From contig NZ_QAJN01000001.1 in the NCBI RefSeq assembly GCF_003852425.1, positions 248,001 to 312,000 of the forward strand: a stretch of DNA of 64,000 nucleotides. Reading direction: 5' to 3'. Source of the stretch: Paucibacter sp. KBW04. Lineage in GTDB: Bacteria > Pseudomonadota > Gammaproteobacteria > Burkholderiales > Burkholderiaceae_C. The translations under genes and the position numbers were made by a program. Positions 22,245 through 27,107 of the stretch are shown in pieces. The notes beneath the pieces are model-generated. The model made no database searches and was not told the DNA's origin. It was given only the letters and a program-made list of their open reading frames with translations. The number at the start of each line of letters is the position of its first letter. Positions within the stretch are counted from its first letter, which is position 1.

Positions 22245-23020
22245 GCGAAAAAATCTTGCACATCACGTCGCGTGACAACCCCGCCCTGCAACGCCTGCGC
22301 AAGCTCAGCCAGGACGGCGGCGCTTATCGCAAGCTGGGTGGCGTTTGGCTGGAGGGCGACCATCTGGCCCGCGCCTGTCTGCAGCGTGGCCATGCGGTGA
22401 CCTTGGCGGTGCTGACGGAGGAGGGCGCTCAGAACCCCGCTCTGCGCGACTTGGCCGATGCCGCCCCGCGCCAGCTGATCGTGCCCGCGGCCCTGTTCAA
22501 AGGCATCAGCGGCCTGGAGTCGCCGGCGCAAATCGGGTTCGAAATTCCGTTTGAAGCAGGGCAAGACCTGACCCCGGGCCTCGACAGCGTGGTGCTGGAC
22601 CGCCTGCAAGACGCCGGCAATGTGGGCACGATTTTGCGCAATGCCGCAGCCTTTGGCTTCAAGCAGGTGCTGGCCTTGAAGGGCACGGCGGCGCTGTGGT
22701 CACCCAAGGTTTTGCGTGCCGGCATGGGCGCGCACTTCGGCCTGCACCTGATCGAGGGCCTCAGCCCGGCCGATCTGGACGCGCTGCAAGTACCGCTGAT
22801 TGCGACCAGCTCTTACGCCGAGTCACAAATCCATCAGCTCACCCTGCCCAAGCCCTGCGCCTGGGTGATGGGCCACGAGGGCCAGGGCGTGCAAGCCGAC
22901 TTGATGCAACGCTGCGCCCTGACCGTGGGCATCCCGCAGCCGGGCGGTGAGGAGTCGCTCAATGTGGGCAGCGCCGCGGCCATCTGCTTGTACGAAAGTG
23001 CCCGCCAACGCTTGGTTTAA
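22241..23020 (+). CDS. TrmH/SpoU-family RNA 2'-O-methyltransferase
   Basis: A 259-residue SPOUT methyltransferase using S-adenosylmethionine. An N-terminal L30e-like substrate-binding domain ([23 protein letters not shown]) leads to the catalytic knot: [21 protein letters not shown] (motif 1, about residues 119-139), [10 protein letters not shown] (motif 2) and [15 protein letters not shown] (motif 3). This matches the rlmB/tsnR-like subgroup. The target nucleotide cannot be assigned from sequence alone. The GTG start overlaps rnhB by 4 bp. It ends the long plus-strand block and converges on the reductase gene. Confidence 0.88.
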
Positions 23021-24036
23021 CTGATGCGCTGCGACATGAATCGCTCGTGATGCAAGAGCGACTCCTGCGCGCCCAGGGCTCGCACCGCGCTCAAGCAGTC
23101 TTCGGTGAACTCGGTGCTGCCGGCCACGAATACGCTGTGCGCCGAGAGATCGGGGAAGAGTTGGGGCAGCAGGCCGGGGAGCCGGCCGTGCAAGATCCCC
23201 GGCTTCTCCTCACCGGTCAGCGTCAGCTTCCAGCTGAAATTGCGATGCATGCGTGACCAGTAAACCAAGCGGCCCTTGGCATAAAAGTCTTCTTCGCTGC
23301 GGGCCGAGAACAGCAGGGTGACCGGCTTGCGGTAGCCCCGCTTCAAGGCCGCCTCGGTGAGCGAGAGCAAGGGCGCCAGGCCCGAGCCCGCCGCCAGGCA
23401 CAGGACAGGCGTGTCGGCCTTGGGGTCGCCGATAAAGTTGCCGTAGGGCCCGGACAAGCTCAGCCCATCGCCGATGCCCACTTCTTCGTGCAGCCAGTTG
23501 CTGGTTTGGCCGCCGTCGACGCGGGTCACCTGCAAGACCAGGCTGCCGTCCTGGCGCGGCGCATTGGCCAAGGAGTAATGCCTGGGCGTGGCGCCGGGTT
23601 TAGGCGCCGTGATGGCCACGTACTGGCCGGGCCAAAAGCGCAGCGGTGCGCCCAGGGGCAGCAGCTGAAACTCGCAGATGCGCGGTGTGCGCTGGATCTT
23701 TTCCACCACCACATAAGGCATGCCTTCGCGGGGCGGGAAGAGCTTGGGTGAGGCATCGGCCGAGCCCCATTCGATCACCAGGCGCTCGGACAAAGGCTTG
23801 GCCATGCACATCAGGCCGAAGCCCTGTTTGCGCTCCTCCTGCGACAAGGCCATGTCCATCACAAAGCCTTGATCGAACTGGCCTTCCAGCACGCGCACCT
23901 TGCACTCGCCGCAAGCACCGGCGCGGCAGTTATTGGGCAGGGCGTAGCCGCCCCGCTCCAAGCTCATCAACACCGTGTCGCCATCGGCCACGGGAATGTT
24001 CTGGCCCGAAGGCGAGAGGGTGATGACTTTGCTCAT
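23017..24036 (-). CDS. 2Fe-2S/FAD oxidoreductase, electron donor to di-iron protein
   Basis: A 339-residue NAD(P)H reductase of the BenC/MmoC/PaaE-like architecture. An N-terminal plant-type ferredoxin domain has cysteines 37, 42, 45 and 77 (pattern CX4CX2C with a fourth Cys 31 residues on). A FAD-binding barrel follows with RHYSLANAP, then an NAD-binding domain with CLAAGSGLAPLLS and a C-terminal VFVAGSTEF. Such proteins feed electrons to aromatic-ring oxygenases. It starts 14 bp after the ferritin-like di-iron gene, with a GAGGG ribosome-binding site, so the two very likely form an operon and a two-component oxygenase. The stop overlaps the end of the trmH-like gene on the opposite strand. 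Confidence 0.88.
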   Translation of the reverse strand: MSKVITLSPSGQNIPVADGDTVLMSLERGGYALPNNCRAGACGECKVRVLEGQFDQGFVMDMALSQEERKQGFGLMCMAKPLSERLVIEWGSADASPKLFPPREGMPYVVVEKIQRTPRICEFQLLPLGAPLRFWPGQYVAITAPKPGATPRHYSLANAPRQDGSLVLQVTRVDGGQTSNWLHEEVGIGDGLSLSGPYGNFIGDPKADTPVLCLAAGSGLAPLLSLTEAALKRGYRKPVTLLFSARSEEDFYAKGRLVYWSRMHRNFSWKLTLTGEEKPGILHGRLPGLLPQLFPDLSAHSVFVAGSTEFTEDCLSAVRALGAQESLLHHERFMSQRIS

Positions 24037-24050
24037 AAGAAAGCCCTCGC

Positions 24051-25076
24051 TCAGAACACCGGGATGATGTCTTTCATGTCCACATCGCGCACCTCTTCAC
24101 CCGAGATGCCCACCTCCGGGATGGCAGGGAAGGGGATGCCGTATTTGTCCAGCACGCCCTTGAGATTGAGCATGGCATTGCGCCAGTTCTCCTTCTTGGC
24201 CTCGTACTCGGGGATGTAGAAGCCAGCGTTGCGGGCCACGGTCTCGATCTCGCGCTGGTTGGGGATGAAGTCCGGGCCTATGTCCCAGAAGTCTTCCGGC
24301 GGCTCGAACAGCACGCCCGAGAGGAAGAGGAAGCCAGCGCGGATCTGCTTGGTGATCAAGGATTTGTCCGACAGATCCATCTTGGGATAGTCGCGCTCCA
24401 TCAAGGCCATGCAGATGGCCATATGCCGACCTTCGTCGCGGCCCACCTTGCGGAAGCCTTCCTGGAACACCGGCTCGGTACACTTGGCCGCCATCTGGTG
24501 AAAGATGGTGGCCGCCGCGATCTCGCCCATCAAGAAGGAGCTGAACAGCACGGCCAGACTGTACTTGGGCACGGCGTTCTTATAGCCCGTCCAGTAGCGG
24601 CCGCCGTTGTGATACAGCCAGTGCGCGTTCTTCCAGGCCTTGCGGCCGATCTCGGTCTTGGGCTCGTAGGTGAGCGGGTCCGGGTGCTCCAGCAGCTTGG
24701 TGATGGCCAGGCCACAGAGTTGTTCGTGGTTTTGCTCGTCGCGCGTCACCGAGAAGAAGCAGCGGCGTACCGCGTCTTCTTCGTGGGCCTCGTAAGTCTT
24801 GATGAAGGCGGCGGCAAACACCGGCGGGGCCGAGGCGTCAAAGACCGAGAGCAGAGTCCACCAGTAGGCCATGGCCTCGCGTTCTTCCCAGCTGTAGCGC
24901 GAGGCGTCGAAAGTGTCCCAGGGCAGTTTCTTGGGGTCCCAGTACTCGCGCTGCGAGGCATCCCAAACCTCCTCCAGCTTGGCCGTCTCGCTGCGCCAGC
25001 TTAAAGGGTAGACATTGGGCTGCACCGTGGCGGGGGGCAGTTCCATGGTGTGGGCGATCCGTTCGTGGTGTGACAT
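24051..25076 (-). CDS. Ferritin-like (RNR R2-like) di-iron protein, probable oxygenase
   Basis: A 341-residue soluble helical protein. Numbered from ATG 25076, it has two carboxylate-histidine iron motifs: E114-Q-N-H117 (in TRDEQNHEQ) and E215-G-R-H218 (in GRDEGRHMA). Glu 185 (LMGEIAAATIF) lies between them, and a first-helix Glu is at about 96-100. This is the di-iron carboxylate layout of R2, AurF and related oxygenases. It does not look like a true class I R2 (no partner nrdA) or like PaaA or BoxB. TTG 25088 in frame is rejected because GGAG lies ideally before ATG 25076. The neighbouring reductase and PaaX-type regulator suggest oxidation of an aromatic or related organic compound; the substrate is unknown. 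Confidence 0.75.
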   Translation of the reverse strand: MSHHERIAHTMELPPATVQPNVYPLSWRSETAKLEEVWDASQREYWDPKKLPWDTFDASRYSWEEREAMAYWWTLLSVFDASAPPVFAAAFIKTYEAHEEDAVRRCFFSVTRDEQNHEQLCGLAITKLLEHPDPLTYEPKTEIGRKAWKNAHWLYHNGGRYWTGYKNAVPKYSLAVLFSSFLMGEIAAATIFHQMAAKCTEPVFQEGFRKVGRDEGRHMAICMALMERDYPKMDLSDKSLITKQIRAGFLFLSGVLFEPPEDFWDIGPDFIPNQREIETVARNAGFYIPEYEAKKENWRNAMLNLKGVLDKYGIPFPAIPEVGISGEEVRDVDMKDIIPVF

Positions 25077-25123
25077 GGCCGTCTCCAAATATTGTTGAGA
25101 TCAGGCCGGGCTGTGTGTAGACC

Positions 25124-25176
25124 TGATACGACAAATGGTAATTACTGCCAAGTCTGTATCATATTGACCTGGGTCA
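25124..25176. promoter_or_regulatory. Candidate operator region of the di-iron operon
   Basis: Two inverted repeats lie upstream of the di-iron gene. TGATACGAC (25124-25132) and GTCTGTATCA (25152-25161) have arms TGATAC/GTATCA about 32 bp apart, roughly three helical turns. Next to it is the 12-bp palindrome TGACCTGGGTCA (25165-25176). The first resembles the TGATTC-type half-sites described for PaaX in Escherichia coli, and a PaaX-family gene is adjacent. Binding is inferred. Confidence 0.5.
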
Positions 25177-25227
25177 GAACTCGCGTTCCTGCCTGCTAGG
25201 GCTTTTCCCGGGGCCTCGGGCTGGGGC

Positions 25228-26172
25228 TTAGAGCAGACCGCCGAAGCGCTGGAAGACGTAAGGCGTCAGCGGCGGCACAAAGCCGGATTCGGCCTTGAGC
25301 TGGGCCAGCACATGGGCGTCCGCCGCCAGGTGCAGGCGCCGATACAGCTCGGCAGACAAGGCATAGGCCTGGGTGCCCGGCCAGCTTGGCGGCAGCAGGG
25401 CGGTGGGCAAATGCGGGTCGCGCAGCTGCACCCGGCGGAAGGAGTGAATCAGCAGGGTACGGGCCAGCAAGGCCGGGCCGGCTGGAATGGGCTGGCCGAG
25501 AGCCAGGGCTTGCTCCAGGCTGCTCAGCAAGGGGCTGAAACGTTGGATGAACTGCTCATAGTCGCTCGCCAACTGATCCAGGGGCCAGGCCTGGGTGGCG
25601 AACTCCTGCAGGGATCGACCCCGCAAGGGCGCGATCTCTTTGGCGGATAGAACGAAGACTTGATCGCGCAGGCCCAGACGGTGCAGCATGCTGGCCAGGG
25701 CATCGCGGCGCGGCGCTGGGTGGCCCAGCACACCCGGGCCCAGGGCCACAAAGCCCTCCCAGGCCAGCTCGCGCCGCAGCTGCAGGCGCGCCGGAGCGGC
25801 CTCGACACCCGCCTGCATGACGAGCAAGGTCCACTGACCGTCCCAGCCCTCGGGCGTGGCCGAGTAGATGCGGCTGTGAGCCTGCTCGAAACGGCTGAAG
25901 CCCTCGGGGGTGAGCTGGTATTCGCTGCGCCGGCCCTGGCGATTCGCGCGCAACCAGCCATCTTGCGTCAGCCGGAACACGCTGGTGCGCACCAGGCGCT
26001 CGTTCAGGCCCAGGGGCTCGGCCAGGCGTATCAGGCTTTTGAGCCAGAAATGCCCGCCATAGGGCGCGATGGAGTCGCCCAGCAAGGTGACGATCAGGGA
26101 CTGGGCATTGAGCCGCTCGCTGGCCAAGGCCTGGTCAATCCAGTCGCGGAGCAGAGGTGTGGCGGGGCTCAA
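25228..26172 (-). CDS. PaaX-family transcriptional regulator
   Basis: PaaX-type repressor, known in phenylacetate catabolism to sense phenylacetyl-CoA. The N-terminal winged helix is TLLGDSIAPYGGHFWLKSLIRL followed by NERLVRTSVFRLTQDGWL. The central block is EGWDGQWTLLVMQ, and the C-terminus LIHSFRRVQLRDPHLPTALLP ends with the family tail YVFQRFGGLL. No ATG is available near the conserved start; TTG 26172 gives 314 residues, close to the family length. A longer frame to 26454 would run inside the transporter gene and has no homologous sequence. It lies between the EamA gene (59 bp upstream) and the di-iron operon (151 bp downstream), so it probably controls the latter. No phenylacetate catabolic genes are in the window. 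Confidence 0.85.
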   Translation of the reverse strand: MSPATPLLRDWIDQALASERLNAQSLIVTLLGDSIAPYGGHFWLKSLIRLAEPLGLNERLVRTSVFRLTQDGWLRANRQGRRSEYQLTPEGFSRFEQAHSRIYSATPEGWDGQWTLLVMQAGVEAAPARLQLRRELAWEGFVALGPGVLGHPAPRRDALASMLHRLGLRDQVFVLSAKEIAPLRGRSLQEFATQAWPLDQLASDYEQFIQRFSPLLSSLEQALALGQPIPAGPALLARTLLIHSFRRVQLRDPHLPTALLPPSWPGTQAYALSAELYRRLHLAADAHVLAQLKAESGFVPPLTPYVFQRFGGLL

Positions 26173-26231: not shown

Positions 26232-27107
26232 TCAGAGCGTCAAGCCGATCACGCCCGCCGCGATGCAGGCCGCGCCGGCCAAACGCCAGCCGCGCTCGCC
26301 TTCCTTCAGCAAGGTCCCGCCCAGCAAAGCTGCGAACAGCATCGAAACCTCGCGCGTGGGTGCCACCCGAGACAGCGGCGCCAGCTGCATGGCATAGAGC
26401 ACCAAGATGTAAGCCAGCGGGCTGCACACCGCCACCAGCAGGACGTAGCGCCACTGCAGACGCAGAGCGCCTGCAAAACCCTCAGGGTCGCGCCACAGCG
26501 CGGGCAACATAAAGGGCACGCGCAGCAGATTGCTGAAATAGTCCAGCAGCAGGGGCGAGATCAGCAAGACCTTGATGGCATAGCCGTCCACCACGGTGTA
26601 GCCCGCGATCAGGACGCCTATGAGGCCGCCCCATAGCAGGCCTAACTTTCTGCGCCGCTGGGCCTCGCCCACGCTGCGCCGCCACAGCCCCGGCCCAGCA
26701 GCAATCAGCACAATGCCCAGCACCACGGCCAGCAGGCCCAGGCTGCCGCGCAGGCCTAGATGCTCGTCCAGCAAGAGCAGGGCCGCGATGGCCGACATGG
26801 CCGGTGCACTGCCGCGCGCGATGGGGTAGACCACGCTCAGATCGGCCACCCGGTAGCCGGTCAACAAGGCGTTGAAATAGAGCAGGTGCAGGATGGCCGT
26901 GGCCAGCAAAACGGCCCAGATCTTGGCGTCGAAGGCGGCGACGACATCCCAGCCCACCACCCAGACCACCGGCAGCCAGATCACGCTGACCGTGAGCGCC
27001 GAGGCCAGAGCGAAGTGATGGTTGCCGCCGGCCTTTTTGGCCGCGAAGTTCCAAAAAGCATGCAGCAGCGCGGCGGCCAGCACAAGGGCTAGAGCGTTGG
27101 CGGGCAC
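26232..27107 (-). CDS. EamA/DMT-family membrane transporter
   Basis: A 291-residue, ten-helix drug/metabolite transporter made of two EamA repeats. The first repeat ends near PIARGSAPAMSAIAALLLLDEHLG, a typical EamA helix-4 segment, and the second has APLSRVAPTREVSMLFAALLGGTLLKEGE. It probably exports or imports a small metabolite; the substrate is unknown. The GTG start lies one base after the ppsR stop, so the two are likely co-transcribed. It precedes the PaaX-type regulator on the same strand. Confidence 0.82.
   Translation of the reverse strand: MPANALALVLAAALLHAFWNFAAKKAGGNHHFALASALTVSVIWLPVVWVVGWDVVAAFDAKIWAVLLATAILHLLYFNALLTGYRVADLSVVYPIARGSAPAMSAIAALLLLDEHLGLRGSLGLLAVVLGIVLIAAGPGLWRRSVGEAQRRRKLGLLWGGLIGVLIAGYTVVDGYAIKVLLISPLLLDYFSNLLRVPFMLPALWRDPEGFAGALRLQWRYVLLVAVCSPLAYILVLYAMQLAPLSRVAPTREVSMLFAALLGGTLLKEGERGWRLAGAACIAAGVIGLTL

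Follow-up and report, generated by a model that had tools for sequence, protein, structure and literature searches.

A two-protein di-iron oxygenase encoded beside paaX is a candidate phenylacetyl-CoA epoxidase in Paucibacter sp. KBW04 and related carriers

We analyzed a 64,000-nucleotide stretch of the genome of Paucibacter sp. KBW04, a relative of Roseateles (contig NZ_QAJN01000001.1, positions 248,001-312,000; hereafter, the window), in which two adjacent genes for a ferritin-like di-iron protein and a reductase follow a gene for PaaX, a repressor of the phenylacetyl-coenzyme A (CoA)-responsive family. Our results suggest, with a probability of roughly two in three, that this pair is a two-protein, O2- and NADH-dependent phenylacetyl-CoA oxygenase of the aerobic pathway, most likely a 1,2-epoxidase, which replaces PaaABC(D)E in several lineages and is a second enzyme beside PaaABCDE in others, the KBW04 genome included. 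That the pair represents an undescribed two-component di-iron oxygenase family and a non-homologous replacement for the phenylacetyl-CoA epoxidase is probable, if slightly less so, and its membership of the phenylacetyl-CoA regulon is well supported. A literature search, with preprints and most subscription papers outside its reach, returned no description of this enzyme, and none was seen in the papers cited below or in PMC2653477 and PMC6515984. The locus is organized as follows (positions are those of the window):

23017-24036, minus strand: reductase gene (339 residues), starting 14 bp after the end of the di-iron gene
24051-25076, minus strand: ferritin-like di-iron protein (341 residues, ATG at 25076), the proposed phenylacetyl-CoA ring oxygenase
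25124-25161, no strand: candidate PaaX-type operator, a perfect inverted repeat TGATAC-N26-GTATCA, 47 bp upstream of the ATG of the di-iron gene
25228-26172, minus strand: PaaX (314 residues), of the phenylacetyl-CoA-responsive repressor family by TIGR02277 and three Pfam PaaX domains

PaaX lies upstream on the same strand, 151 bp from the di-iron gene. A first-pass annotation had given the same open reading frames, sizes, strands and spacings and had proposed an uncharacterized di-iron oxygenase of two components, paired with a PaaX-family regulator, which our analysis supports. It had left the substrate open, and gene neighborhoods, co-occurrence and operators now point to phenylacetyl-CoA.

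The pair adjoins phenylacetate genes in most tested carriers lacking PaaA and PaaC

A scan of GTDB contigs returned at least 592 matching stretches, of which at least 528 encode a relative of the di-iron protein. The neighborhood loci draw on the best 80 of these at least 592 stretches (77-97% identical), and the counts therefore describe close relatives; altogether 89 loci were examined, three of which repeat the KBW04 genome and one other genome, and many of which end at contig ends. Genes were called with a codon model, which recovered nearly all annotated genes of one locus (L005; L and G numbers are our handles for loci and genomes), and gene labels were assigned with NCBIfam on cluster representatives, so that a gene carries the name given to its cluster. 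Conserved linkage, which the first-pass annotation had sought in other genomes, does exist: in 88 of the 89 loci the reductase gene comes immediately after the di-iron gene, with Nonomuraea as the exception, and PaaX is present in 30. Core paa genes of two or more types were found in 25 loci (including two from Variovorax, where the ligase is annotated just as AMP-binding in sister records), and either PaaX or such genes in 47. PaaK, the di-iron protein, the reductase and PaaA are contiguous in that order in six loci of Comamonas, Marinospirillum and metagenome-assembled genomes (MAGs) (L062, L063, L075, L079, L081 and L086), and in Vitreoscilla filiformis the pair comes after paaABCDE, pcaF and paaZ.

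To relate the pair to the established epoxidase, we searched 54 carriers for PaaA (50 of the 80 contig loci, isolates first, and four genomes with G handles). PaaA scored over cut-off in 42, two had only weak PaaA-like proteins, and 10 had none at E <= 0.001. Among 399 Burkholderiales genomes, PaaG (E <= 1e-95) was detected in 83 and PaaA (E <= 1e-60) in 67. PaaG was present in all 11 carriers with strong matches to the pair (10 over the family cut-off and that of KBW04 just under), against 72 of the 388 other genomes (Fisher p = 2e-8); six further matches, weak and partial (E 6e-9 to 8e-4), were not counted among the 11. Four of these carriers have PaaA and seven have none (Fisher p = 0.03 for PaaA-less among PaaG genomes, the seven spanning three genera with four in one and not being independent for this test). 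PaaC was not found at E <= 0.001 in any of the 17 PaaA-less carriers tested and was present in 4 of 4 PaaA-positive controls. On a tree of 61 labeled proteins, with outgroups on very long branches and MAGs from contig loci that come without completeness values, the PaaA-less label must change 6 times, and well-supported branches force 4 or more of these changes.

Core paa genes stand beside the pair in 14 of the 17 PaaA-less carriers, which fits the place of the missing PaaABCE between PaaK and PaaG/PaaZ, and no PaaB, PaaC or PaaD partner was found beside the pair in these carriers. In eight of them (G042, G217, G268, G298, G390, G426, G435 and G499) a PaaI-PaaH-PaaG-PaaN set is divergent from the di-iron and reductase genes, and PaaK, PcaF and LivK come next in seven; the 11.8-kb contig of G268 does not show them. 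Profile scores in G499 and G042 were 704 and 719 bits for PaaK, 383 and 373 for PaaG, 728 and 721 for PcaF, and 272 and 280 for PaaX, all over cut-off, and 678 (over) and 656 (just under the cut-off of 669) for PaaH; PaaN_2 scored 904 bits in G499. A PcaF-PaaK-PaaG-PaaN set is likewise divergent from the pair in Accumulibacter (L031, L032 and L050) and lies a few kb downstream of it in L052. Two further loci, L018 and L023, have PcaF, the pair, TetR, PaaZ, PaaK and PaaG, with PaaI also in L023. PaaZ acts after the epoxide step, and both of these PaaZ proteins are full-length (967 and 992 bits, cut-off 562.8) and count for replacement of the epoxidase by the pair. Since PaaG occurs in the clusters and PaaZ in these two loci, the product is most likely the 1,2-epoxide.

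L018 and L023 are MAGs binned as Polyangiaceae, in which the pair is 86-87% identical and clusters with Roseateles on the tree, a placement due either to horizontal transfer or to misbinning.

Candidate operators of the PaaX and PaaR types precede the pair in many carriers

The window PaaX scores 271.7 bits with TIGR02277 (equivalog cut-off 264.55), and its three Pfam PaaX domains are all over cut-off. According to the accessible text of PMC9493321, the phenylacetyl-CoA-responsive PaaX of E. coli has the operator TGATTC-N27-GAATCA, and Burkholderia PaaR binds ACCGACCGGTCGGTT in a system that also responds to phenylacetyl-CoA. The candidate site at 25124-25161 has the same build as the E. coli operator, with one base different per half-site. 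It is the only perfect TGATAC-N26-GTATCA in the window (0 in 100 shuffles), and only two perfect sites of this type were found in the 5.6-Mb genome, with none in a reversed control. The other TGATAC-N24-30-GTATCA site of the genome (G000:C11:43592-43628, L145) lies between two open reading frames with no evident link to phenylacetate.

We then searched 76 non-redundant upstream regions, obtained from 113. A PaaX-type site (TGATAC-N24-30-GTATCA, at most one mismatch) was present in 21 of them, as compared with a mean of 0.2 and a largest value of 2 in mononucleotide shuffles; the half-site was derived from the searched regions, so that this count is not independent of them. The PaaR motif is the published one, and a site of this type (at most two mismatches) was present in 19 regions (shuffle mean 0.17, largest 1). 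Exactly one of the two types was found in 40 of the 76 regions and both together in none.

The first-pass annotation had also stated that no other catabolic gene is present. This is true of the neighborhood of the pair, but a full paa operon is located elsewhere in the same genome, with the gene order G-I-K-A-B-C-D-E-TetR-LivK-Z, a PaaZ of 989 bits and a PaaA (G000:C1:360882-361751) about 88 kb from the pair and outside the window. This operon carries a perfect PaaR-type site in place of a PaaX-type one. KBW04 thus appears to have two oxygenases for a single pathway, each under its own repressor, with both repressors answering to one inducer.

The di-iron protein falls outside the known families at the level of sequence profiles

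The residues E114/H117, E215/H218 and E185, which the first-pass annotation had pointed out, were confirmed and do not vary among 97 distinct homologues; the same is true of D80, E96, E99, E100 and C121. Judged by conservation and spacing, D80, E114, H117, E185, E215 and H218 are likely the iron ligands. At E <= 10 the protein matched three Pfam and two NCBIfam families, every one below its cut-off, and thus no Pfam-A or NCBIfam family, MiaE being covered, was assigned; the best Pfam match was rubrerythrin (17.7 bits, cut-off 22.8), and AurF (PF11583) scored 16.8 bits (cut-off 29.6). PDB sequences gave no convincing match with either the single sequence (best E = 0.053) or a 59-member profile (best E = 0.013), both best matches being a designed helix bundle.

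PaaA (TIGR02156), BoxB (TIGR03225) and R2 (PF00268) were not among the matches of the window protein at E <= 10, and comparing the profile of the di-iron family with four PaaA, one BoxB and six R2 gave 0.2%, 0.45% and 0.1%, respectively, with comparison profiles that are shallow and compatible with a distant ferritin-fold kinship. The earlier view that the protein does not belong with PaaA, BoxB or class I R2 thus holds at the level of sequence profiles, and the profile check proposed then against AurF, R2, PaaA, BoxB and MiaE gave no family over cut-off. The nearest resemblance to R2 and R2-like oxidases consists of weak PF00268 matches in 28 of 59 relatives at E <= 1 (best E 2.9e-5; one relative from the genome search reached 23.8 bits, cut-off 33.6) and of the order Asp, ExxH, Glu, ExxH, which we take to be the R2 pattern. 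However, the radical Tyr of R2 presumably sits four residues after the first His ligand, and no Tyr was found at that position, which is occupied by Cys121 in 97 of 97 homologues. AurF, CmlI and DnfA resemble the protein in a ferritin-like fold, as judged by the weak PF11583 matches that each of the 59 scanned members gave (best E 5.8e-6); these scores are below cut-off in the four members with listed scores, including Variovorax (25.3 bits) and Nonomuraea (25.4 bits). In AurF and DnfA a third His ligand lies four residues before the last Glu ligand (PMC9478400, partial text), whereas all 97 homologues have Ile or Val at this position (211). On the basis of profile scores, profile comparisons and the missing third His, we rejected the names PaaA, BoxB, R2 and AurF for this protein.

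The reductase and a proposed mechanism for the pair

The reductase contains, in this order, Fer2 ([2Fe-2S]), FAD_binding_6 and NAD_binding_1 domains, all over Pfam cut-offs, which fits an oxygenase reductase of the Fer2-FAD-NAD type, and its solved relatives include the reductases of toluene 4-monooxygenase and benzoate dioxygenase. In reductase-fed di-iron oxygenases, NADH, FAD and [2Fe-2S] reduce the di-iron site, which activates O2. By analogy, NADH would reduce the FAD of the reductase, and electrons would pass via its [2Fe-2S] cluster to the di-iron site, which, once reduced, would activate O2 and oxygenate the ring of phenylacetyl-CoA. The product, most likely the 1,2-epoxide, would be converted to oxepin-CoA by PaaG. 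In KBW04, PaaX bound at 25124-25161 would be released when phenylacetyl-CoA appears.

The pair would have in common with PaaABC(D)E the proposed reaction, a CoA-thioester substrate, a di-iron site, an NAD(P)H-linked flavin and [2Fe-2S] reductase, the place in the gene cluster and control by PaaX or PaaR. It differs in its oxygenase, a single chain where PaaABC is a complex, in the lack of sequence similarity between the di-iron protein and PaaA, and in its reductase, since PaaE carries the Fer2 part last. The benzoyl-CoA 2,3-epoxidase BoxAB is also built from a single di-iron chain and a separate reductase and acts on an aryl-CoA, as proposed for the pair. Nevertheless, BoxB has no detectable similarity to the di-iron protein (471-residue model versus 341 residues), the reductase scores 18 bits against 459 with the BoxA profile, and among 19 carrier genomes a BoxB turned up in 1.

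Alternative explanations

Several results weigh against a phenylacetyl-CoA epoxidase that replaces PaaABC(D)E. PaaA is present in 42 of the 54 carriers, so replacement is not the rule, and the pair cannot always be a replacement for PaaA. In 42 of the 89 loci we saw no PaaX and fewer than two core paa gene types, and 3 of the 17 PaaA-less carriers have no core paa enzyme in the locus (PaaX and Liv genes were seen in L059, Liv genes in L053 and none of these in L058). The tie of the PaaX-type site to a local PaaX is loose, as the site occurs in 9 of 20 regions whose locus has PaaX and in 12 of 56 whose locus does not, in a tally where some loci are short. In the PaaA-less clusters that have PaaN_2 for PaaZ, no oxepin-CoA hydrolase over cut-off was found among the proteins tested; for other bacteria, an alternative crotonase-type hydrolase has been proposed (PMC9007349, partial text). 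For the seven PaaA-less genomes of the Burkholderiales survey, the PaaA search was limited to E <= 1e-60, which excludes a weak PaaA-like protein less strictly; the PaaC profile, which also detected PaaA in 4 of 4 controls, found nothing in those seven. The loose PaaX tie and this E limit count against replacement. Finally, PaaG occurs in 19 genomes that lack both PaaA and the pair, and PaaG without PaaA is ruled out as stand-alone proof of an epoxidase.

The retention of PaaA in most carriers, together with the occurrence of both enzymes in one gene run in six loci and of 51-53% identical relatives in a parallel CoA-pathway cluster of Variovorax, would also fit an oxygenase for a related (hydroxylated or substituted) arylacetyl-CoA, or an enzyme making hydroxyphenylacetyl-CoA, that works beside the pathway and does not replace PaaABCE. 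We consider this unlikely, because in 14 of the 17 PaaA-less carriers core paa genes adjoin the pair with no PaaA or PaaC to supply the PaaG substrate, and because the operators are of the PaaX and PaaR types, whose regulators answer to phenylacetyl-CoA (PMC9493321, partial text). Far less probable is an AurF/DnfA-like N-oxygenase or hydroxylamine oxidase, or a ferritin for stress or repair, whose association with paa genes is incidental. The weak AurF matches in every member scanned speak for it, and DnfA has a partner, DnfB, with FNR and 2Fe-2S domains (PMC9478400, partial text), but the third His ligand is replaced by Ile or Val, and paa genes and operators are linked to the pair repeatedly, in different lineages. 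A phenylacetyl-CoA oxygenase remains our preferred interpretation of the pair.

Distribution of the pair and other observations

Named carriers include Roseateles, Ideonella, Azohydromonas, Azospirillum, Azoarcus, Pseudothauera, Comamonas, Paraburkholderia, Marinospirillum and Accumulibacter. In even draws the pair is sparse: 4 of 99 near relatives, 11 of 399 Burkholderiales and 2 of 299 genomes of the phylum, KBW04 being included each time. Five records of a plasmid collection have relatives (50-78% identity). The pair also occurs in a 3.6-Mb one-contig genome from another order of the same class (L134, G736), with no labeled paa gene in the 20 kb covered.

In Variovorax (L006, L007 and L008, match from 10001), the 51-53% identical relative and its reductase are encoded with MaoC, enoyl-CoA hydratase, thiolase, an AMP-binding ligase, a branched-chain-type ABC transporter, an FAD-linked oxidase and an indolepyruvate ferredoxin oxidoreductase. 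Genes resembling the latter are also found near PaaX, di-iron and reductase genes in two other loci (L015:4674-9827 and L054:16005-19595); enzymes of this type can make phenylacetyl-CoA from phenylpyruvate (PMC9765128, partial text).

Eight of the 19 PaaG-only genomes were inspected, and PaaK lies near PaaG in three (G281, G068 and G235), with PaaG elsewhere in five. G281, a genome without standard PaaA, encodes a 255-residue weak PaaA-like protein (L126:8895-9662; 61 bits, cut-off 280) between PaaN and PaaG-PaaI-PaaK, which is possibly another reduced phenylacetyl-CoA oxygenase, and other minimal solutions may exist.

Upstream of PaaX in the window lies one more gene of the same strand:

26232-27107, minus strand: EamA gene

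The suggestion of the first-pass annotation that this EamA transporter might move the substrate or product found no support, since tblastn against a collected set of loci gave matches in the KBW04 genome alone, and we rejected EamA as part of the system. In Roseateles oligotrophus (L014), PaaX and the next upstream gene call are just 4 bp apart, leaving no room for EamA. Its position between PaaX and the next gene, seen only in KBW04, suggests that it was recently inserted or that L014 has lost it.

Implications

PaaABC(D)E is taken as the hallmark of aerobic phenylacetate breakdown. In a 2026 survey, PaaA and PaaC were proposed as robust genomic markers, with filtering for co-location with PaaABCDE, and configurations without the epoxidase, some of them in Cupriavidus, are mentioned (PMC13186573). 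If the pair is a phenylacetyl-CoA epoxidase, surveys based on PaaA/PaaC markers undercount the pathway, and genomes scored as lacking it would have it. In cells of the KBW04 type, two unrelated epoxidases would operate, each controlled by a different repressor, and both repressors would answer to one inducer. The pair would then provide a simple two-protein system for aryl-CoA ring oxygenation beside BoxAB, and a compact catalyst, and would constitute a new solution to a central step of bacterial aromatic-compound degradation.

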